Positions 1,686 through 17,956 of a stretch of 64,000 nt of DNA are shown here, piece after piece. The stretch covers positions 200,547-264,546 of the forward strand of contig NPFB01000038.1 in NCBI GenBank assembly GCA_014084085.1, written 5' to 3'. The stretch's first letter is position 1; each line of letters starts with the position of its first letter. The notes beneath the pieces were generated by a model. The model saw only the letters and a list, made by a program, of their open reading frames with translations. It searched no databases and had not been told where the DNA came from. The translations under genes were made by a program, and so were the position numbers. The DNA comes from Hondaea fermentalgiana. Lineage: Eukaryota; Sar; Bigyra; Thraustochytrida; Thraustochytriidae.

Positions 1686-3092
1686 TTAGCTATAGTCGAG
1701 GAGAATAGCGTCCCTTTCTTCCGGCCCGAGAAGATCAAACTCTTCCTGGGTCATGCATGGCAGCTTTTTCATGTTGAGCTTGAGATTGAGCCGGTGCAAA
1801 TCCGTCTTATAATGCTCCCGCTGCTGCGAACGGTCCGAGCCAAACCCCACGTTGCACGTACGACATCGCAAGCCGCCCGGGTCTGCTGCTGCTGCAGTAG
1901 TCGATGCCGTTGCGGGGTTTGCCGCTGCAGGCGGAGCCTCTGGAGCAGGGTTTGGTTCGGCACAGCCCGCTCTCGTCTCTGCTGCACTCTCAGTCGGCTT
2001 TTTCGCAGAAGCAGTTTCGTCGTCATTGTTTTCGTCGTCGTTGTCGTCCGCCTCGTTTGCCAGACGGCGCATTTCCTTCTTCTTCTTCTTCTTGCTCTTC
2101 TTTTGCTGCTTTTTCAGGGTTTGCAGGTTGGAGGCGGCTTCCTCGTACATGTCCACCGGTTCAGGGTCTTCTTCTCCTGCATCCTGGCCCGAGGTCGCGT
2201 CCGTGGCGCTCTCTTTGAGGTCGCTGGCTTGGGCCGCTTCTTCTTCTTGAGCGGATCCTGACGTGGCAGCAGCGGTAGCAGCGGCCTTGTCGCTTGCCTT
2301 GGACTGTGCGTTGCGTTTGGCATCGGCGTTCTCCACATCGGCTTCTGTGTCATCCTGAACGTTGAAATCCTTGACTTCGAGCGTGCCCGGTGGAGCGAGC
2401 GAGGCGACGAATTCGGAAAGGGCGCGAAAATGACCCGGGTCCAAATAGACATGCTGCTCAAAGTTACCCGGCACAGAGTCATCCGAGCGCGCAAGGCCAC
2501 TTTGAGAAGACGTGAGCTGCTCCGTCAGAGCCTCGCGGTGCTCAGCAGCGACGACAACACGGACAAACATCTGCGCGCGCTTGATGGGCATTACCTTTTC
2601 GAGCTCGCGGATAACCTCGAGTGCCTGCTGCTTGGCACTTTTGCTCGTGACGGCAGCAAAGTGCAAGGTGTCGCGCATCGCCGTCTCGATGGTGCTCACG
2701 GGGTACGGCCGCAAGTTATCGGGGTTGATGCACTTTTCGCTAACAATGGTAGCAACGTTGCGGAACCGATTTTGAATCTGCATCGCGCGCTCACCTTCGG
2801 ATACCTGTGAAGACCCCTTGCTGAGAATGATGCGGCACACCGCTTCAGTATCACTCGTCCCAAAGGCCTTTTCCAGATCCTTGGTCTTGGCCATGATGCC
2901 CTTGCTCACATTCTCAAAGACGCGGTCAATTTGCAGCACCTCGTCGATGTCGGTCTCCAGGCCGCTCCGCCAGTTCTCGATCTTGTTGCGGTAGCATGCT
3001 ACTTCGAAGCGCTTCCCGTGCCTCTTGAGCCGCACCACGGCGACGTTCGTGAGTCGCACCTGGTTCACCGCCTGCTGGATCTTCTGGCTCAT
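1686..3092 (-). CDS. SBDS: SBDS ribosome maturation factor with C-terminal acidic/basic linker and C2H2 zinc finger
   Basis: 468 residues. The first ~245 residues match the SBDS family throughout: an N-terminal FYSH-type domain (NVAVVRLKRHGKRFEVACY, about 16-34), the central helical domain (INPDNLRPYPVSTIETAM, about 122-139), then a ferredoxin-like third domain. In eukaryotes SBDS acts with the GTPase EFL1 to release eIF6 from the 60S subunit. The standard protein is about 250 residues. This one carries an extra ~220: a Lys/Glu/Ala-rich low-complexity linker with long D/E and K runs, and a terminal C2H2 finger (CRTCNVGFGSDRSQQREHYKTDLH pattern, Cys-x2-Cys...His-x5-His, about 410-432). Extended SBDS proteins are known in plants and some protists. 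The ATG at 3092 gives the canonical N-terminus; the upstream open frame is not family-like. Confidence 0.93.
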   Translation of the reverse strand: MSQKIQQAVNQVRLTNVAVVRLKRHGKRFEVACYRNKIENWRSGLETDIDEVLQIDRVFENVSKGIMAKTKDLEKAFGTSDTEAVCRIILSKGSSQVSEGERAMQIQNRFRNVATIVSEKCINPDNLRPYPVSTIETAMRDTLHFAAVTSKSAKQQALEVIRELEKVMPIKRAQMFVRVVVAAEHREALTEQLTSSQSGLARSDDSVPGNFEQHVYLDPGHFRALSEFVASLAPPGTLEVKDFNVQDDTEADVENADAKRNAQSKASDKAAATAAATSGSAQEEEAAQASDLKESATDATSGQDAGEEDPEPVDMYEEAASNLQTLKKQQKKSKKKKKKEMRRLANEADDNDDENNDDETASAKKPTESAAETRAGCAEPNPAPEAPPAAANPATASTTAAAADPGGLRCRTCNVGFGSDRSQQREHYKTDLHRLNLKLNMKKLPCMTQEEFDLLGPEERDAILLDYS

Positions 3093-3851
3093 GGTGTCTT
3101 CTGTCTCGCTATCTGCCTGCCTGGGCTTCGCGTCGCCTTCTGCAGACGCAAAGAGCGCCTCGCTGCGCCCGGGCGCCGGTTTGACGCGCTTCCGAGGTTT
3201 CCTCCTCTCGCGCTCGCAGACCCTGGCCGCGCGCTGCACACTGACCACGAAATTCGGGATTGGGCGGATTTTGGCCCTTGCTAGGCCGATTACCGTACTA
3301 TCGCTTGCCTGGCTATAAATGAATGCCTGTGACAACTCGCCGGAACCCAACGCCGGAACCCGAACGGAATCCACCAGGATCGATGATCCTCACCACGAGG
3401 CCGAGGCTGCGGGATCGGTCCATTGTCTGCGAGACCGATCCATCGTGGCTTCAAGCTGCGAGTGCATTAGAAAATGATGGGGTGGGAAAATGTATGGCAT
3501 GCCAAGACTCGGGCCTCACTGTCAGTTCGAATTCGCAAGTTATTGGCAAATTTGCGGCTGTGCGGATGGCAAACTCACCGTGCTGCAAAGTATTCGTCTC
3601 GTAATATGTGACAGAGCCAGCTGATCTTACTATTTATCGACTTCAATTGCTGATCTCGCTCAGATTGTCATTGATAGAGCAAAGAAGATTTGGGGTGGCT
3701 CAAAACGCAACGCCTCGAGTCTCCCTCCTCATTATAGTTTTGAATTCAACTTGAGAAATCATGACGGTCATGATGTTCGACAGTTGCAAAGTTTATTGAC
3801 TTTTTCATCGACCCATTCTGAGTCCTTGCACGATATATATATATACTTTCC
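3093..3851. other. spacer between SBDS and the EGF/7TM array
   Basis: About 760 bp holding the SBDS upstream region (TAGG element near 3282) and the 3' flank of the first array gene, which includes a short TATATATATATA run near 3833-3845. No convincing gene is visible. Small open frames here lack domains and disagree in composition with the neighbours. Confidence 0.5.
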
Positions 3852-10166: not shown

Positions 10167-12608
10167 CTAGTTGGTCTCCTGGGCGTTGACAATCGTGATG
10201 CGATTGCGGTCCGCAGAAACATGGAAGACGTTACAGGCTTCGTACTCGCGAAGGCAGGCGTCGAGATGCTCCGATGTGAATCCCTTGGCAAGCACATAAG
10301 GTTCGATGTCGCCGTAGCGGACCGTGGTGGCGCGATGCGCGCGTGCATAGTCGGCAATGCCACGCATAATGGCACCCAGAAGGTCCCCGTTGGCCTGACC
10401 GTTGCCTGCACCCGCGGCAGCGGCGCCGTCATCCTCTTCGAGAGAGATCTTGGAAGCACGCACGAGGCGAATAGCCTCCTGCACGTCGTTCTGGCTGACA
10501 ACCTGTGAGAAACGCAGACGAGCGAGAGCTTGCGCCATGCGCAGAATACTGAGCAGCTGGCGTGCCGTGAGCATGGTCTGCGAGTCGGCTTCGCGCGCAT
10601 CCTGGGCATCCTGCTGACGCATGCTCACGTACTCCTCGACGATGACGTTGGCAAGCTCCTCGGGGACGTGCGGAACGACCTTGCGCGCTTGGGAAATGTA
10701 AGCACGGAGCAAGGCCGGGCGCACCGGCTCAAAGTCGAGCTCCGGGTGCCGCTTGTGACGGTGAACATGCGTAATGTGTGCCGCAAGCGCGCTGTCCTGC
10801 ACCATGTCTGGAATATCGAGAAGCAAAAAGAGCAGATCGAAGCGGGAGAGCAACGCTGCAGGCAGATTGATATTCTCCGCAGGCGCGTAGCGTTTGTTGT
10901 AGCGACCATAGAGTGGATTGGCGGCCGCGAGAATAGAAGTCCGGGCATTAAGCGTGGTGGTGATGCCGGCCTTGGCAATCGAGACAGTCTGCTGTTCCAT
11001 GACCTCGTGAATAGCAGTGCGATCAGAGTCGTCCATCTTATCAAACTCATCAATACAGCAAATGCCCATGTCAGCGAGAACAAGAGCGCCGCCTTCGAGG
11101 GCAACATCGCCAGTAGTCTTGTCCCGGGTCACGGCAGCCGTGAGACCGACGCCACTTGAGCCCTTGCCCGTGGTGTAAACGCCGCGGGGCGCGATGGACG
11201 CAATGTGCTTGAGCAGCTGCGATTTGGCCACACCAGGATCACCAACGAGGCAGACGTTGATGTCGCCACGAATGCTCATGCCGTCATTCATGCGCCGCGT
11301 CACGCCGCTCACGAGCTGTAGGAGGAGAGCCTTTTTCACGTCTTCGTGGCCGAAGATTTCCGGTGCAATGGAGCGCGCCAGCTTGTCGTATACATTTTCA
11401 TCGTCGGCGAGCTCGTCCACCTCGTCCTCCATTTCGGGGCTCAGTTCGTCGCCAAGCTGTGCGTACGTCTTTTTGTGCCGTACAATTTGCATGCAGTCTA
11501 GATAGGTGTTCATGATGAGGCCGGCCCTCATTTGGCGAAAGGCGCTGAGCTTTTCAGGCAAAAACACACCGACCACCTCGACACAGTCTCCAGGGCTGCA
11601 CTGCCGCGTGCAGCTTCCCTTGGCATGCACGGTCATGGACCTGGGAATGTGGCCAATGGGAACCTGATCAGGAGCCTCTTGAATTTTAATTTCCTGAAAC
11701 TTGACAAACTTGCTTCCACGCGTTTGGAGATGAAGCTGGCCCTTTTTCGACCCACGTGTCTCTTTGCAGACGGGAACCTCGCACTCAAGCTTGGGCATGA
11801 ATTCCGTACCAAGGACCTCCTGGTAGGTCTCAAAGCCGCACTCGTCGCACTGATATGTGGCCACTTGAACGACCGGCTTGACGTCAGAGACGCGCACCAC
11901 GATGCCGCGGATGCGAACGAGGCCGCCAATCTCCGAAGCCAGCACCTTGCGCAACGAGCCGGCTTCCATCTTGCGTGGGGGCACAATCACTACTTCGTAC
12001 CTGCGCAAGAGGGATGCAGGAAGTCTAGCTCGGGGATCAACATCAGCGCCGTCGCCGCCGTCCATATCGTCGTCGTCCTCGTCTTGCGCCGCGTTTCCAA
12101 GAGGAATCATTTGTTGCTGCGCGTTATTGCCGCCGCCGTTGTTATTTCGCTGGTTTCGCTGCTCCTGCTCGACGCGGTGCATGCGTAAGACTTCGTTAAT
12201 GTAGTTTTCTTGAACGTCTTCGGCTGCAGCACGAAGAGCATCAGGGTCGGTGGGTTCGGGCATGAGCTTGTCGGCCTGCTTGGAGAAGATGTCAACGTAT
12301 CGCAAGGTGTTACGCATAATGCGGTCGACAAGGGCATCTTGGGCCGGGTTGGCTCCGACCATGTCGTCAAGGCGCACCTCGAGCACGTTGCGTTTCCGGT
12401 TGGCGATTTCGCTCAGCATGTCTTGGTACTTGTAAACAAATTGGTGGGGCGATGGCTCAAGTTTGAACTCTTGCAAAAACTTGGCAACGAGGTTTTCATC
12501 TGAGCGATAGTTGATGCGCCCCGCGTCCACTGCGCCATCTTGCTCGCCTGCGCGCTCGCCGTCACCGGGCCCCTGCGACCCGGCAGTCGCGCTGCCCATC
12601 ATCATCAT
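10167..12608 (-). CDS. MCM7: MCM7, subunit of the replicative MCM2-7 helicase
   Basis: 813 residues. Nuclear DNA-replication licensing helicase subunit. The zinc-binding region starts at CDECGFETYQ (about 253) and continues into the MCM7-typical LQTRGSKFVKFQEIKIQE and DQVPIGHIPRS. The AAA+ core shows Walker A GDPGVAKS (about 455-462), Walker B ICCIDEFDKM and the SRFDLLFLLLDIP arginine-finger region (about 585-600). The tail has the winged-helix region. The sequence fits MCM7 rather than MCM2-6 in the zinc-finger segment and in the HITHVHRHKRHPE stretch. An Asn/Gln/Gly-rich and acidic insert sits near residues 150-200. Four consecutive ATGs at 12608, 12605, 12602 and 12599 make the exact start ambiguous by up to three residues. 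It is transcribed divergently from the ABC-GNAT gene. Confidence 0.96.
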   Translation of the reverse strand: MMMMGSATAGSQGPGDGERAGEQDGAVDAGRINYRSDENLVAKFLQEFKLEPSPHQFVYKYQDMLSEIANRKRNVLEVRLDDMVGANPAQDALVDRIMRNTLRYVDIFSKQADKLMPEPTDPDALRAAAEDVQENYINEVLRMHRVEQEQRNQRNNNGGGNNAQQQMIPLGNAAQDEDDDDMDGGDGADVDPRARLPASLLRRYEVVIVPPRKMEAGSLRKVLASEIGGLVRIRGIVVRVSDVKPVVQVATYQCDECGFETYQEVLGTEFMPKLECEVPVCKETRGSKKGQLHLQTRGSKFVKFQEIKIQEAPDQVPIGHIPRSMTVHAKGSCTRQCSPGDCVEVVGVFLPEKLSAFRQMRAGLIMNTYLDCMQIVRHKKTYAQLGDELSPEMEDEVDELADDENVYDKLARSIAPEIFGHEDVKKALLLQLVSGVTRRMNDGMSIRGDINVCLVGDPGVAKSQLLKHIASIAPRGVYTTGKGSSGVGLTAAVTRDKTTGDVALEGGALVLADMGICCIDEFDKMDDSDRTAIHEVMEQQTVSIAKAGITTTLNARTSILAAANPLYGRYNKRYAPAENINLPAALLSRFDLLFLLLDIPDMVQDSALAAHITHVHRHKRHPELDFEPVRPALLRAYISQARKVVPHVPEELANVIVEEYVSMRQQDAQDAREADSQTMLTARQLLSILRMAQALARLRFSQVVSQNDVQEAIRLVRASKISLEEDDGAAAAGAGNGQANGDLLGAIMRGIADYARAHRATTVRYGDIEPYVLAKGFTSEHLDACLREYEACNVFHVSADRNRITIVNAQETN

Positions 12609-13787
12609 GTTGCCTGCGCGCGACCACGTTCGCAACGCGACACGACCACGGGACGTGTGACGCAAGAAGGAATAGGGATCGAGGCGAGCGGACGGCCGGC
12701 TGACCAGGCGCAGGCCGACGCGGGCGACGGGCCTGGCCGCGCGCGCGAGAAGGGTCGAGAGATGCGAGCCTCGCGTCCAAAGGTGCTCTGCGAGCGACTT
12801 AACTGCCGCAATTTTTTTCCATCATCTGCTTTTTTCCATGACCTGAGCTATTTAGGTATCTCAAGGTACCCCGAAATTTCTCATTCTTTTTTGGTGGGGC
12901 GAAACGTACAGGAAAAGCCCAGCCGGGAGAATTATTGTCCAATAACATGGTTTCTGCAATCGCTTGCACGGATTTATGCGAGCACGCACCAAAACTCCCT
13001 CCCCCGTCCAAAAGATAAACCAAACCACCTTTTCAACTTGAAAGGAGGCAGCTTCACAAAAGGCAGCAGCTTTACAAAAGACAACAGCTTTACAAAAGGC
13101 AGCAGCTTTACAAAAGGTAGCAGCTTGAAAGGAATAGCATTTCGGGCCTCAGGGCGTTTCAGAATCCGAAAATTGATTATTCGCTGCCAAAGGCTTCGTT
13201 TTCTCAAATGACAAACTTCATTTTCACTAGCTCGTTATTCTCGTTTCAATGCTAGGTACTTTCAGCCGCGTCGCAAGTGCTCATGTAGTAAATTCACCTC
13301 GCGCCAATTCATGACTACGGTGAGAATCCCAATCATAAATTGTCCACGTGCTACAGCTACTTTTGAGAGCGAGTCGCGCGCGATCGTATTGTGCAGAAAG
13401 AAACGTTCCTCGCTAGGAAAAGGAAGGGGGGAAAGTTACCCATTTGGACTCTCGCCAACTTTATGTCCTTTGTGAGGTTTCGTGCCGCGTTGATGCTTCA
13501 ATCTGTTGCAGACGGCATGCGTTGGTTGGTGGGACGGTCATGAATTTGACATTTGTTCCGAGGTTTACTACATTTCGGGGTCTTCGAAGACGAGTGGTGT
13601 GGCGAGCATTGGTCCAATCTTCGCGCGACGCACCGGCAGCGTCGCGAACGACTTGCAGGTGCGCGAGAAGAAGAGGGCTTGACTCGGGCTGCCTTGCCTG
13701 GTCGCGGCGCGCTGACGCGTTCGTGCGTGGCCGTTCGCTACTGACACAGACACACCGGCGTCAGGCAACTAATTCCTGGTTCTGGTC
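12609..13787. other. divergent spacer between MCM7 and the SAP-ABC-GNAT gene
   Basis: 1.18 kb shared upstream region. The MCM7-proximal 200 bp is GC-rich and the middle is AT-rich; the middle includes the 18-bp tandem repeat at 13047-13133. I find no supported gene. The plus-strand open frame through the repeat owes its length to the repeat period being a multiple of three. Confidence 0.5.
13047..13133. repeat. 18-bp tandem repeat (ggcagcagctttacaaaa)
   Basis: Units at 13047-13061 (partial, 15 bp), 13062-13079, 13080-13097, 13098-13115 and a decayed one at 13116-13133. It lies in the divergent spacer of MCM7. It could be a minisatellite or a cluster of binding sites. Confidence 0.75.
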
Positions 13788-16217
13788 ATGGCGCAAAACA
13801 TGGACGAGTCCGTGCGGACTGTCGCGCTGGCGGCGCTGACGAAGAAGGAGCTCCGGAGCGTGTTGACGGAGCTCGGAATGTCGGCAGCAGGCTCAAAGAC
13901 AGACCTGGCATCACGAATGACGGAAGCTCTTCCGTCTGGCGCAAATGTGCGTCTCCGTGGCTTGGAGCTTGTGGCAATTGAAAATGCCGAGGGGAATGAG
14001 ATTCCGCTTGAGGATCTGCGTCAGCCGGTCCGTGTGGAGCTGGAGCCGCCTCCCCCTGTACGCGACCCGGCTGAGTGTTTTCCTGGAGCGAAAATCGTCC
14101 GCGGCGAGCACCATGGACGCGTAGAAGGCTTTCAACAAGTGCAAGCTGTACCCCGCGGCAGCGCCTTGACGGCATCAAGAAAGCGGCCACGCAAGCCCGA
14201 CGCAAGTACAGATCTCAGCACTGCGCTAGCCGGAAGAAAAGGGGGATGCGTCGTGGCGATCGTGGGCGACACAGGGGCCGGGAAGACGCGACTTCTGCTC
14301 GAAACGCCTGAAACGAGCTCTCATCTCGAGGATGAGCAGGATGTAACGTGGAATTCGGAGCAGGCGATCGTTTCTCAATTTGGCTCGGTGGAGGAGGCCT
14401 CGACGTGGCTTTTAGCCGTGGGCCTCACCTCAATTCCATCGTGGTGCAAGCCGCATCATATTCTGTCGACAGGGGAGCGATATCGCGCTGTCATGGCGCG
14501 TATGCTACAAAAGGCGTCGAGTCCCAGCGGGAAGGGCATCCTGGTCCTCGATAATTTCACGAATCAGCTTGATCGCAATACTGCACGTGCCTGCAGCGCA
14601 GCATTGAGCAAACTGGTACGAAAGCTTGGAATTGTATGCGTGGTGTCGACGGCTCTCATGGACACGGTCGAGTGGCTCATGCCCGAAGAGATATTTAGCT
14701 GCGTGGGCTGCAATGCGGGCCCAAAACGATGCATCACGTCGAGATCGGGCGACTTTGTTAGCCCCAAGGTTCGCATATGCATTAGTGATCGTTTTGTGAT
14801 CAAATCATTGCGAGCAGGAGAACCCGTGCCAGAGGACAGCCTCGCGGATGCCGACCTACCCTCCCGCCAAGCGGAGCGCCTTAAGTCCGAGTTTCAGTAT
14901 GACGCTGACGATAACTTTGCAGGTACGCGCACCGGCGAGGGCGGCGCAGTGCTCGTGACCAAGGTTTCCACGGACGATGCAACGCTGTCGTGTGATCGCC
15001 TCTTTGACAGTGCCTTTGACGGTCAGTGCATGATGCACGTTCCTGCGCGTGAGACTGTGGCCCCACTGCAAGCGTTTTCCTTGGGGGTGATTACGGGCAT
15101 GTCCGGATCAGCCAAGAGCGTGTTGCTGAGGCACCATTTTGGACCTCCAACGCGTGTATCGTGGGCAGAAACGCACAGCGTTGCTGCGCATTTTGCTTCG
15201 GCGCACGAGGCAACAAGATGCCTTGGACTTGTTTTTTTGGACGCTGACAAGCACGGCTCACAGAAATATTCCGAGCTTTCTACTGGCGAGCAAGAGCTCG
15301 CAAACTTGGCGCGCGTGTTGGACCTCCGCAACGTTTATTTGGATGAGTTCACGAGCGCCCTGGACCGAAAGCTAGCAGTTCGTGTGGCGCGCGCTGTGGC
15401 CGACCATCTAAAGAGTCGAGACGATGAGTCTCTAGGCTGGGTTGTGGTGAGCTGCCATGCCGACGTACTCGGCCCGCTGTCCTCAGCAGCGCAGTGGATG
15501 TATGACACCTGGCGTGGTCGCATCGAACCTTCTGATGCAGCGACGAACGATGGGTCGTTTTGTGATGAAAAACAAGATCAGCTCGCGAAACTCGATGCAC
15601 GTGGCGTCGTTGAGGTATCTAAAGACGGGTCCTGTGGCATCTTGCGACGCCCTAGCCTGGGCTTGCGTCTCAGCCGCTGTGAGGCGTGGCTGTGGGCCCT
15701 TTTTCGCGATCATCACTACAAGACCAAGAGCCTGTCGCGTAAATCGAGGTGCTTTGTGCTCTATGAGGCAGAAACGGGTAGCCTTGTCGGTTTCGTGGCG
15801 GCCATTCAGCAGGTGGGGACTCCTCATCAAGATTTTGAAGCAGGCAGCGAAAGTTACACGGCCACATGGCGTGCCCATCGCACGGTTGTACTGCCTGCAT
15901 GGCAGGGACTTGGGATCGGATCTCGTCTGAGTGATGCGTGTGCCGAGGTGCATCGACGACTCGCTTGCATGTACATGGCACAGACTGTGCATCCGCGCTT
16001 TGGCGAGTACCGCGATCGGAGCGTGCTTTGGGAAGCTGCCAAGTGGAACCATTCCACCCGTGCTTTCAAGATTGAGACTTGGAAACAGCGTCTTGAGAAC
16101 AAGCGCATCAAGTTACGTATACCTCGCTACGTTTATGCCCATGTGTACAAGGGCCCGGGCGACGATGAAAAGGAAGCCGTGACTCTCGCAGCGGAGCGCG
16201 TTGCTTTCGTGCCTTGA
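13788..16217 (+). CDS. SAP-like domain / two ABC-type ATPase domains / GNAT acetyltransferase fusion protein (COG2401-like)
   Basis: 809 residues with no membrane segments. Residues about 18-48 resemble a SAP DNA-binding motif (KKELRSVLTELGM...GSKTDLASRM). The first ATPase domain has Walker A GDTGAGKT at 160-167, signature LSTGE 226-230 and Walker B ILVLD 251-255; the usual catalytic Glu is replaced by Asn256. The second has Walker A GMSGSAKS 437-444, signature LSTGEQ 497-502, Walker B VYLDE with Glu520, D-loop SALD 523-526 and switch His557. Residues about 605-790 look like a GNAT domain with acetyl-CoA motif QGLGIG at 706-711. The architecture resembles COG2401, ABC-type ATPase fused to a predicted acetyltransferase (MK0520 type), known mainly from prokaryotes. 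One degenerate and one intact ATPase site is common in ABC dimers. A Cys cluster (C305, C308, C315) might bind zinc. The substrate is unknown; a DNA or chromatin role is inferred from the SAP motif. Confidence 0.8.
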   Translation: MAQNMDESVRTVALAALTKKELRSVLTELGMSAAGSKTDLASRMTEALPSGANVRLRGLELVAIENAEGNEIPLEDLRQPVRVELEPPPPVRDPAECFPGAKIVRGEHHGRVEGFQQVQAVPRGSALTASRKRPRKPDASTDLSTALAGRKGGCVVAIVGDTGAGKTRLLLETPETSSHLEDEQDVTWNSEQAIVSQFGSVEEASTWLLAVGLTSIPSWCKPHHILSTGERYRAVMARMLQKASSPSGKGILVLDNFTNQLDRNTARACSAALSKLVRKLGIVCVVSTALMDTVEWLMPEEIFSCVGCNAGPKRCITSRSGDFVSPKVRICISDRFVIKSLRAGEPVPEDSLADADLPSRQAERLKSEFQYDADDNFAGTRTGEGGAVLVTKVSTDDATLSCDRLFDSAFDGQCMMHVPARETVAPLQAFSLGVITGMSGSAKSVLLRHHFGPPTRVSWAETHSVAAHFASAHEATRCLGLVFLDADKHGSQKYSELSTGEQELANLARVLDLRNVYLDEFTSALDRKLAVRVARAVADHLKSRDDESLGWVVVSCHADVLGPLSSAAQWMYDTWRGRIEPSDAATNDGSFCDEKQDQLAKLDARGVVEVSKDGSCGILRRPSLGLRLSRCEAWLWALFRDHHYKTKSLSRKSRCFVLYEAETGSLVGFVAAIQQVGTPHQDFEAGSESYTATWRAHRTVVLPAWQGLGIGSRLSDACAEVHRRLACMYMAQTVHPRFGEYRDRSVLWEAAKWNHSTRAFKIETWKQRLENKRIKLRIPRYVYAHVYKGPGDDEKEAVTLAAERVAFVP

Positions 16218-16508: not shown

Positions 16509-17765
16509 TTACGCCTTGAGCGAAGGAGCGGCCTTGGGCGTCTCGACGTGGGAAATTGGGTCAGAATCTTCCTTCCACTCGCCATCACGGGACGCGACAT
16601 CATCCTTGGACTCCTCACTATCGTCAACTTCAGCCAAGACGCCGTCGTCATCACGCTCCTTGCGAGACTTTTTGGACTCTTCGTACTGGCGAAACCATGC
16701 GACAGTCTTGGTAAGACCTTCCTCCAGCTGGACCTTGGGCTTATAGCCAAGAAGCTCAGCCGCCTTTGTGGTATCGGCGCACGTGTAAGGGACATCGCCA
16801 GGTTGATCGGGCAGGATCTCAATCTTGGCCTTGCGGCCGCAAAGGCGCTCAATGGTGGAAATAAACTCCTTGAGCTTGCAGGTATTGCCCTTGCCAAGAT
16901 TGACGACCTCACAGCCGAGAGGCTTGTCAATAGCGAGAACGACACCGTTGACAATGTCGGAGATGTAGGTGTAGTCGCGAGCCGAGGAGCCATCGCCGTA
17001 CTGCTGCAGGGTGATGCCATTGAAGATGCGGTTCATGAACTTGTAGGGCGCCATGTCGGGGCGGCCTCGGGGACCGTAGACGGTAAAGAAGCGGAGACCG
17101 GTGGACTGGAGACCATAGAGGGAATGGTACGTGGCGGCAAAGAGCTCGCAGCTCTTCTTTGTGGCAGCGTACTGGGAGACCTGGTTATCCACGCGATCGG
17201 ACTCGGCAAAGACCTGCTTCTTGGAGCCACCGTAGACGCTCGAGGACGAGGCGTAGACAAAATTTTGGACGCCGTGCTCGGCGGCAATGGACATGAGCGA
17301 GACCGTGCCGACGATGTTGCTGTGGATGTAGATGAAGGGATCCTCAATGCTCGGACGCACGCCAGCGCGCGCGGCGAGATGGCAGACGTGTGTAACATTG
17401 TGCTCGTCAAAGAGAGACTTGACGAGTTCGCGTTCGCAAATGTCGGCCTCCGCGAAGACAAAGAGATCTTCGTGGGACGTTTCGCCGCTGGTGTCACGGG
17501 CGGCAACTTCGGCAGCCTTGCGGCGGAGGAGCTCGATGTTGGCGCGCTTGATGGCGACATCATAGTAATCGTTCATCTCGTCGATGCCGACGACCTTGTC
17601 ACCGCGTTCGAGCAGAACTTCGGCCGTGTGGCTTCCGATGAAGCCGCCCACGCCGGTCAGGAAGACGACCTTGCCACTGGTGCCAGAGCTGGCTGAATCC
17701 GACGAAGACGACCATTGGGAGGCCAGGTCATCGGAGTGGCTGCGCACGCTTTCCTCGTCGCTCAT
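16509..17765 (-). CDS. UDP-glucuronate 4-epimerase-like nucleotide-sugar epimerase (extended SDR)
   Basis: 418 residues. An NAD(P)-dependent nucleotide-sugar epimerase that probably interconverts UDP-glucuronate and UDP-galacturonate for wall, scale or extracellular polysaccharide synthesis. The Rossmann motif GVGGFIG is at 38-44. The catalytic YxxxK pair is Tyr199/Lys203, preceded by the YASSSSVYG segment (171-179). The AARAGVRPSIEDP and LRFFTVYGPRGRPDMA stretches are typical of the GAE / CapI subgroup rather than GalE. An acidic N-terminal leader of about 30 residues and a charged Ser/Asp-rich C-terminal tail flank the domain. There is no signal peptide or transmembrane segment, unlike plant Golgi GAE enzymes, so a cytosolic location is suggested. 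Codon use is strongly GC-biased, implying good expression. Confidence 0.88.
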   Translation of the reverse strand: MSDEESVRSHSDDLASQWSSSSDSASSGTSGKVVFLTGVGGFIGSHTAEVLLERGDKVVGIDEMNDYYDVAIKRANIELLRRKAAEVAARDTSGETSHEDLFVFAEADICERELVKSLFDEHNVTHVCHLAARAGVRPSIEDPFIYIHSNIVGTVSLMSIAAEHGVQNFVYASSSSVYGGSKKQVFAESDRVDNQVSQYAATKKSCELFAATYHSLYGLQSTGLRFFTVYGPRGRPDMAPYKFMNRIFNGITLQQYGDGSSARDYTYISDIVNGVVLAIDKPLGCEVVNLGKGNTCKLKEFISTIERLCGRKAKIEILPDQPGDVPYTCADTTKAAELLGYKPKVQLEEGLTKTVAWFRQYEESKKSRKERDDDGVLAEVDDSEESKDDVASRDGEWKEDSDPISHVETPKAAPSLKA

Positions 17766-17956
17766 TTTTCCTCTCTGCTTGGGTCTGACACTCACCTCGC
17801 TTTTCTGGCTAGCTGGCTCCGTGGACCGGAAAGAAGCCTTGCAGTACTCGGCCGCTTGCCGCTTGCTCTTCTTCTTGTTGTGCCGGGCCTTGCGCCCGCT
17901 CGCTCGCTCTCTCGCTCGCTCTCGTGCCGAGTCAGACCGTGGTGCCCCCCTTGACG

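Follow-up and report, generated by a model that had tools for sequence, protein, structure and literature searches.

A thraustochytrid SAP/double-ABC/GNAT protein related to phage ABC-GNAT proteins as a candidate acyltransferase of DNA bases

A 64,000-nucleotide stretch of contig NPFB01000038.1 of the thraustochytrid Hondaea fermentalgiana (GCA_014084085.1, positions 200,547 to 264,546; hereafter the window) encodes an 809-residue protein that combines an N-terminal SAP-like domain, two ABC ATPase domains (ABC1 and ABC2) and a C-terminal GNAT acetyltransferase domain. The reading we favor, with somewhat better than even confidence, is that a phage ABC-GNAT enzyme has been domesticated here and uses acyl-CoA to acylate a base in nuclear DNA; hence the organism may add an acyl mark to its own DNA. 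A bolder extension, which we put forward only tentatively, is that several eukaryotic lineages, Symbiodinium dinoflagellates included, possess a novel acylated nuclear base made by a phage-derived, duplication-rebuilt and asymmetric ATP-gated enzyme, in some of them equipped with a SAP domain. The new observation that bears on function is that prokaryotic ABC-GNAT genes occur in the genomic slot of mom, the DNA-modification gene of phage Mu. To our knowledge, eukaryotic nuclear DNA carries few base modifications beyond methylation and its oxidation products, base J and hydroxymethyluracil. With its kinship to a phage DNA-modification family, a domain of DNA-binding type and a retained active site, this eukaryotic protein points to organisms and to a gene with which a new base could be sought.

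A phage-type unit with an additional ABC domain and a eukaryotic history

Profile searches showed that the nearest family of the window protein is phrog_11143 (357 positions, no assigned function; E 5.6e-84), and 51 of 50,697 phage records contain a tblastn match to the protein. Five translated one-gene phage forms, 372-406 residues long, consist of a pre-segment, an ABC domain and a GNAT domain, and in phages TR-TP1, Vinitor-27 and pT24 these parts are split over two genes. Residues 7-362 of the protein from Aeromonas phage AsFcp_2 align to residues 382-789 of the window protein (blastp, E 2.6e-42), a region that, judged by sequence comparison, is a complete phage-type unit. The ABC domain of the phage unit aligns a second time, to residues 150-305, and by the same measure ABC1 is one more copy from this ABC family. 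A member of phrog_11143, QAX98348.1, is described in a passage of PMC7824862, which places this accession beside phage pT24, as a GNAT-ABC protein predicted to acylate a DNA base, a prediction attributed there to Iyer et al. 2013. Our literature search, which did not extend to Iyer et al. 2013, recognised no paper on a eukaryotic or two-ABC member. The abstract of that study reportedly mentions some of its systems in stramenopile algae, and eukaryotic members of the family may already have been noted in it.

The architecture given in the initial annotation is upheld by Pfam, with SAP below its cut-off, and by structure prediction, and the reading frame and its motifs lie where it placed them (Walker A motifs from residues 160 and 437, LSTGE from 226 and 497, Asn256, Glu520 and Gln706-Gly711). 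In Pfam scans ABC_tran scores 28.9 bits (cut-off 25), Acetyltransf_1 27.3 (20.7) and Acetyltransf_7 27.6 (27). A confident AlphaFold2 model (pTM 0.84) contains paired ABC domains, which superpose on closed pairs of nucleotide-binding domains (NBDs), and a C-terminal GNAT fold, the absence of which was to have counted against the original proposal. An alignment of 12 eukaryotic sequences has 83 invariant columns, and the GNAT residues HHY, Q-x-x-G-x-G, Arg698 and Pro736 are among the best conserved of the whole protein; HHY and the acyl-CoA loop are conserved in at least 90% of 50 rows.

The SAP domain, which is likely to bind DNA, scores 20.7 bits against a curated Pfam threshold of 23.9 in the window protein and 19.9, 17.7 and 11.4 bits in its relatives P0003, P0004 and P0002 respectively, the last being a very weak match (E 0.27); the Pfam scan found none in P0005, P0006 or the five phage forms. 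A structure or profile check of this region had been suggested with the original proposal. Residues 10-47 are modelled as strand-helix-helix (helices 19-28 and 37-47; block pLDDT 90-96 from residue 11), and a profile built from four N-termini has as its top PDB chain 2rno_A, a "Putative DNA-binding protein" (E 0.011). The basic stretch that follows is SRKRPRP in P0002, and with the pattern used the other members have different basic runs or none. Together, the SAP domain and the basic stretch would place the protein in the nucleus.

The prokaryotic and viral relatives were sampled in three sets: the top 80 of 403 from genomes of bacteria and archaea, the top 80 of at least 597 from viral contigs (sample 1) and the top 80 of 373 found in IMG/VR with a wider alignment (sample 2), of which 79 were new. 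Two P-loops were seen in none of the 239 best open reading frames (ORFs) from these 80 genome, 80 viral and 79 viral loci, the counts being made by a regular expression on the best ORF, with L168 truncated and without a visible P-loop and with L004, L007 and L009 being split genes. Because the window protein has two ABC domains where the phage family has one per chain, it represents a derived eukaryotic subfamily rather than a typical member of phrog_11143. Two of the viral contigs, L261 (457-2258) and L265 (3929-5724), encode an ABC-GNAT protein immediately followed by an ORF of ~200 residues that matches the same references and is perhaps a second GNAT.

The first database search recovered 13 relatives besides the window protein's own entry at E <= 1e-3, among them the MMETSP transcript P0003; a second search added three more, P0015 and two Symbiodinium proteins (P0016, P0017). 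These relatives, together with the 83 invariant columns, show that the protein is no chance reading frame. The label eukaryotic for the metagenomic relatives rests on their grouping in the trees. The initial annotation held that eukaryotic orthologues of known function would undermine it: eukaryotic relatives do exist, but those recovered bear only domain names and none that denotes a function. Two ABC domains, whole or partial, are present in P0001-P0007 and P0015-P0017, and the SAP-like N-terminus is present in P0001-P0004.

The ATP sites of the window protein are unequal, as previously noted, with Asn256 in ABC1 against Glu520 in ABC2. Asn or Asp replaces the catalytic Glu of the first Walker B in P0001-P0007 and P0015 (8 of the 10 covered), and P0016 and P0017 retain Glu. 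We additionally observed that the second Walker A motif of the window protein is unusual (GxxGxAKS). Its last Gly is retained in P0016 and P0017, so that both sites are intact in Symbiodinium, and is replaced by Ala, Ser or Leu in 13 other members (a count that excludes P0011 and P0014); all 79 new viral relatives have Gly at this position. From these distributions, the loss of Glu and the change in Walker A arose within the eukaryotic clade, perhaps both with a single origin there. The second signature motif is weakened in P0004 (FSSTE) and P0015 (FSRTE). With one site having lost its Glu, the other changed in Walker A and both intact in Symbiodinium, this clade can serve as an example of how paired ABC domains become asymmetric.

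The loci yielded 146 ORFs of 330-430 residues that contain His-His-Tyr or His-Tyr-Tyr; after thinning, 42 were left, which were used in the ABC tree and the C-terminal-unit tree, and of these 33 entered the full-length alignment and 34 the GNAT alignment. In the ABC tree the ABC1 copies form one clade (98/96; with the distant P0018 inside) and the ABC2 copies another (100/98). Separate sources for the two ABCs were considered on account of this split, yet the AU test fails to reject a single clade for both (p-AU 0.348), so that an internal duplication may still account for the pair. In the C-terminal-unit tree the eukaryotes form one clade (100/98), whose neighbors are phage AsFcp_2 and a contig of Verrucomicrobiota (100/96). 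A wider viral tree of 36 prokaryotic or viral rows, with most genome rows left out, and 8 eukaryotic rows has the eukaryotes (100/99) nested in a clade of 26 rows (99/96); the remaining 18 rows of this clade comprise 16 IMG/VR contigs, AsFcp_2 and the Verrucomicrobiota contig. This nesting among mostly viral sequences agrees with the viral or phage origin suggested in the initial annotation, and in a tree without a known root it points to a transfer from viruses to eukaryotes. As to a eukaryotic virus as carrier, 61 IMG/VR pattern matches obtained with the eukaryotic alignment contained no relatives, and two P-loops occur in none of the 79 viral relatives from the wider alignment, a count that covers P-loops and not hosts.

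The mom slot of prokaryotic and phage relatives

A ParB-like gene lies upstream on the same strand in 46 of the 80 genome loci (BLAST cluster; 45 copies within 600 bp), and Pfam ParB_N was detected at E <= 1e-3 in 13 of 50 close upstream genes. Downstream, terminase- and portal-like ORFs were recognised by eye in many genome loci, and a Pfam scan of 32 of 50 close downstream genes and two Sisko genes returned terminase in 1 of the 34 rows, several helix-turn-helix families and Formyl_trans_N in 7. The terminase- and portal-like ORFs suggest that these loci are prophage packaging regions. A Com-like zinc-ribbon motif precedes the ABC-GNAT gene in 7 of the 80 genome loci, ending 187-271 bp upstream of it; the controls gave one occurrence on the reverse strand, none in 77 downstream stretches and none in 68 further upstream. 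Both Com-like ORFs that were tested with Pfam pass the model of Com from Mu, in which com adjoins mom and, according to a passage of PMC6483171, its product activates translation of mom.

In 9 of the 80 genome loci the ABC-GNAT gene is followed by a formyltransferase motif, which neither the upstream nor the reverse-strand controls contain. Komp_PAO1_1 and Porphyromonas phage011a share the order small ORF, ABC-GNAT (confirmed by blastp in both) and formyltransferase. Gene 3 of a Gordonia phage (L006, 1814-2461), annotated as a "tRNA-methyltransferase", is a relative of this formyltransferase, being 38-39% identical to L034 6987-7595, and adjoins an ABC-GNAT gene and a gene annotated as ParB-like, the latter without a Pfam match at E <= 0.01.

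In the Arthrobacter phage loci L210 and L003, Mom and ABC-GNAT are swapped between homologous neighbors. The single strongest case for the mom slot is the swap between Arthrobacter phages EastWest and Sonny, whose flanks match at gp73/gp68 (64% identity), the ParB genes gp74/gp69 (55%), gp78/gp72 (80%) and the clamp genes gp79/gp73 (46%). Between these matching flanks EastWest has an ABC-GNAT gene with two small ORFs and Sonny a small ORF with Mom. Aeromonas phage PX29 carries both Mom and ABC-GNAT. The C-terminus of the ParB-like protein also varies with the enzyme: EastWest has there a short domain that ends in KVKVQTL, and Sonny and Antuna, beside Mom, have a CPxC-type ribbon. By a profile of the short domain, seeded from some of the loci later counted, 72 of 78 genome loci, 5 of 10 phage loci with annotation and 5 of 79 sample-2 viral loci (L286-L290) carry it upstream of ABC-GNAT; it was found in none of 77 downstream stretches and none of 40 Mom loci, 33 of the latter being Mu Mom or close copies and hence of little weight. 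This unnamed domain of ~35-40 residues occurs alone or as the C-terminus of ParB-like proteins (L003 5318-5869, L170 4743-4889 and most of L012-L089). The stand-alone version in Komp_PAO1_1 has no Pfam match, and no significant match to the domain was found in the scanned proteins P0001-P0018. Its distribution suggests a dedicated adaptor, acting alone or fused to ParB, which seems not to occur in the branch containing the eukaryotes. Together these contexts provide an independent functional clue for the predicted phage ABC-GNAT family, and one that can be tested in common laboratory phages.

Proposed mechanism and alternative substrates

In light of the gene contexts of its relatives, DNA would be the substrate of the window protein. 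The "DNA-bound targets" of the initial annotation keep their link to DNA, but are better narrowed to the DNA bases themselves given that the prokaryotic relatives lie in the mom slot. We propose that the phage proteins would act as homodimers, in which both ATP sites are equal and two GNAT domains are present, and that duplication would have yielded a single chain whose two sites are unequal and which has one GNAT. The site with the Walker motifs of ABC1 would hold ATP without splitting it, and slow splitting at the site with those of ABC2, presumably the only hydrolysing one, would reset the enzyme. The SAP domain would recruit the protein to DNA, a role that the ParB-like or small partners could play for some members of the phage family. 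On binding ATP the ABC pair would then close and clamp DNA, and the GNAT pocket with HHY and Q-x-x-G-x-G would acylate an exposed base amine.

Several points weigh against this proposal. The Pfam cut-off is reached by none of the SAP scores. As the Walker A of ABC2 is also altered, hydrolysis could occur at neither site, and the ABC pair may instead be a switch that binds ATP and barely splits it. The links to the mom slot, ParB and the small domain belong to another branch of the family, so that function has to be carried across the tree: the small domain is found in none of the 80 viral loci of sample 1, and L286 and L290, the two of the five positive sample-2 loci that entered the tree, fall outside the eukaryotes' branch. 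The 79 sample-2 loci, which are nearer to the eukaryotes, are without the formyltransferase motif, and 2 have an unconfirmed Com motif. Homology to Mom itself was considered and set aside (hhalign probability 0.6%, E 0.098), with only position and partners in common, by way of the prokaryotic relatives. Mom (8bv8_B) ranks 42 among the Foldseek matches of the GNAT model (E 2.9e-4, TM 0.49), with protein and small-molecule acetyltransferases ahead of it among PDB folds; the likeness to Mom is one common to GNATs in general, and the fold alone cannot distinguish substrates.

Protein N-terminal acetyltransferases head the Foldseek ranking, with SpNatD at E 5.5e-6 and human Naa60 at E 9e-6, and RimI is second by Z. 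Together with the divergent MCM7-like neighbor, these matches are consistent with a GNAT whose substrates are proteins, for instance histones or replication or repair factors bound to DNA, with the SAP domain and ABC pair merely providing recruitment to chromatin. We consider this unlikely, given that GNAT folds are too similar to reveal the substrate and that the prokaryotic relatives occupy the mom slot beside com and ParB-like genes.

Acylation of tRNA or rRNA is also conceivable, as TmcA makes N4-acetylcytidine with an ATPase and a GNAT domain. In the metagenomic relative P0014 a SpoU RNA methylase domain (E 1.9e-27) comes after the same GNAT type, a further point against DNA as substrate, and the ribosome ATPases ABC-F and ABCE1 are among the closest folds to the ABC pair. 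However, this is the one such fusion seen, and it may be real or a gene prediction that joined two adjacent genes; ABC pairs are similar across all these families, and the SAP domain and phage contexts favor DNA, making an RNA substrate quite unlikely.

The presence of UvrA chains among the fold matches raises yet another alternative, namely that the protein works through its ABC pair, as a DNA clamp in repair or genome defense, with an accessory or inactive GNAT. The mad3 model of the Mads defense system matches with E 6e-15, although its best stretch (221-287) is the signature-to-Walker-B region general to ABC proteins. We regard this role as highly improbable, since the GNAT residues are among the best conserved while one ABC site is degenerate. 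PADLOC matched only mad3 and mad8, over ABC stretches, and a defense-system assignment was not retained.

Genomic setting and comparison with known systems

The gene is one unbroken frame and the sole match in its genome (36.0 Mb, 238 contigs searched), in which ParB_N (PF02195) was not found; a Com- or ParB-like neighbor is a trait of some prokaryotic relatives and not of the window gene. Pfam matches at E <= 1e-5 were obtained for 4 of 10 scanned window ORFs. As its Pfam neighbors are an MCM7-like gene, an epimerase and SBDS (Table 1), the gene lies among ordinary cellular genes. The MCM7-like gene and the SAP/ABC/GNAT gene are divergent and ~1.1 kb apart, and might be under common S-phase control. 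Frame 12540-13211, between the two, contains repeated SSFTKG-like units and is probably non-coding.

Table 1. Features of the SAP/ABC/GNAT gene and its neighbors (window coordinates)
Feature	Residues	Position	Strand	Basis or remarks
Whole gene, single-exon ORF with SAP, ABC1, ABC2 and GNAT	809 in all	13788-16217	+	ATG start
SAP domain, likely DNA binding	14-48	13827-13931	+	Pfam below cut-off; helices in model; profile match 2rno_A
Basic stretch SRKRPRKP, possible nuclear localisation signal	130-137	14175-14198	+	By eye
ABC1	150-305	14235-14702	+	Intact Walker A GDTGAGKT 160-167; LSTGE 226-230; Asn256 replaces catalytic Glu
Segment before ABC2, common to N-terminus of phage form	382-424	14931-15059	+	blastp
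ABC2	429-583	15072-15536	+	Altered Walker A GMSGSAKS 437-444; LSTGE 497-501; Glu520 retained
GNAT domain	620-790	15645-16157	+	HHY 642-644; acyl-CoA loop QGLGIG 706-711
ORF with MCM and MCM7 winged-helix domains		10167-12665	-	Pfam
NAD-dependent epimerase, adjoins SAP/ABC/GNAT gene		16509-17795	-	Pfam
SBDS protein		1686-3374	-	Pfam

COG2401, of the MK0520 type, is an ABC ATPase fused to an acetyltransferase, and shares with the window protein the presence of ABC and GNAT on one chain, a likeness of architecture with the MK0520 sequence outside the comparison. The initial annotation took it as the reference family, a place that phrog_11143 fits better as the strongest match; no paper was found under the COG2401 name. 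P0018, whose source name is ABC ATPase / GNAT protein, matches the ABC profile and is distant (branch length 4), covering 17% of the window protein. The phage GNAT-ABC proteins of phrog_11143 are homologous over the full unit of pre-segment, ABC and GNAT with HHY and Q-x-x-G-x-G; in contrast to their single ABC, the eukaryotic form has two with unequal ATP sites and, in the SAP-bearing members, the additional N-terminus.

Mom of phage Mu, which modifies adenine (PDB 8bv8), has the GNAT fold in common with the window protein, and the HY pair in the region of the first GNAT helix is shared by Mom and ABC-GNAT proteins. Its genomic slot and its partners, Com and ParB-like proteins, are common to some prokaryotic ABC-GNAT genes. 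Unlike the window protein, Mom is without the Q-x-x-G-x-G loop in its sequence and without an ABC domain.

CFTR, MRP1 and SUR belong to a class of ABC proteins in which one of the ATP sites is degenerate. MRP4, ABCC1, SUR and CFTR appear among the fold matches of the ABC pair of the window protein, and the first NBD is without the catalytic Glu in this class as in the window protein. The window protein differs from them in having no membrane domain by Pfam scan, in the second Walker A that departs from consensus, and in bearing a SAP and a GNAT domain on the same chain as its ABC pair.
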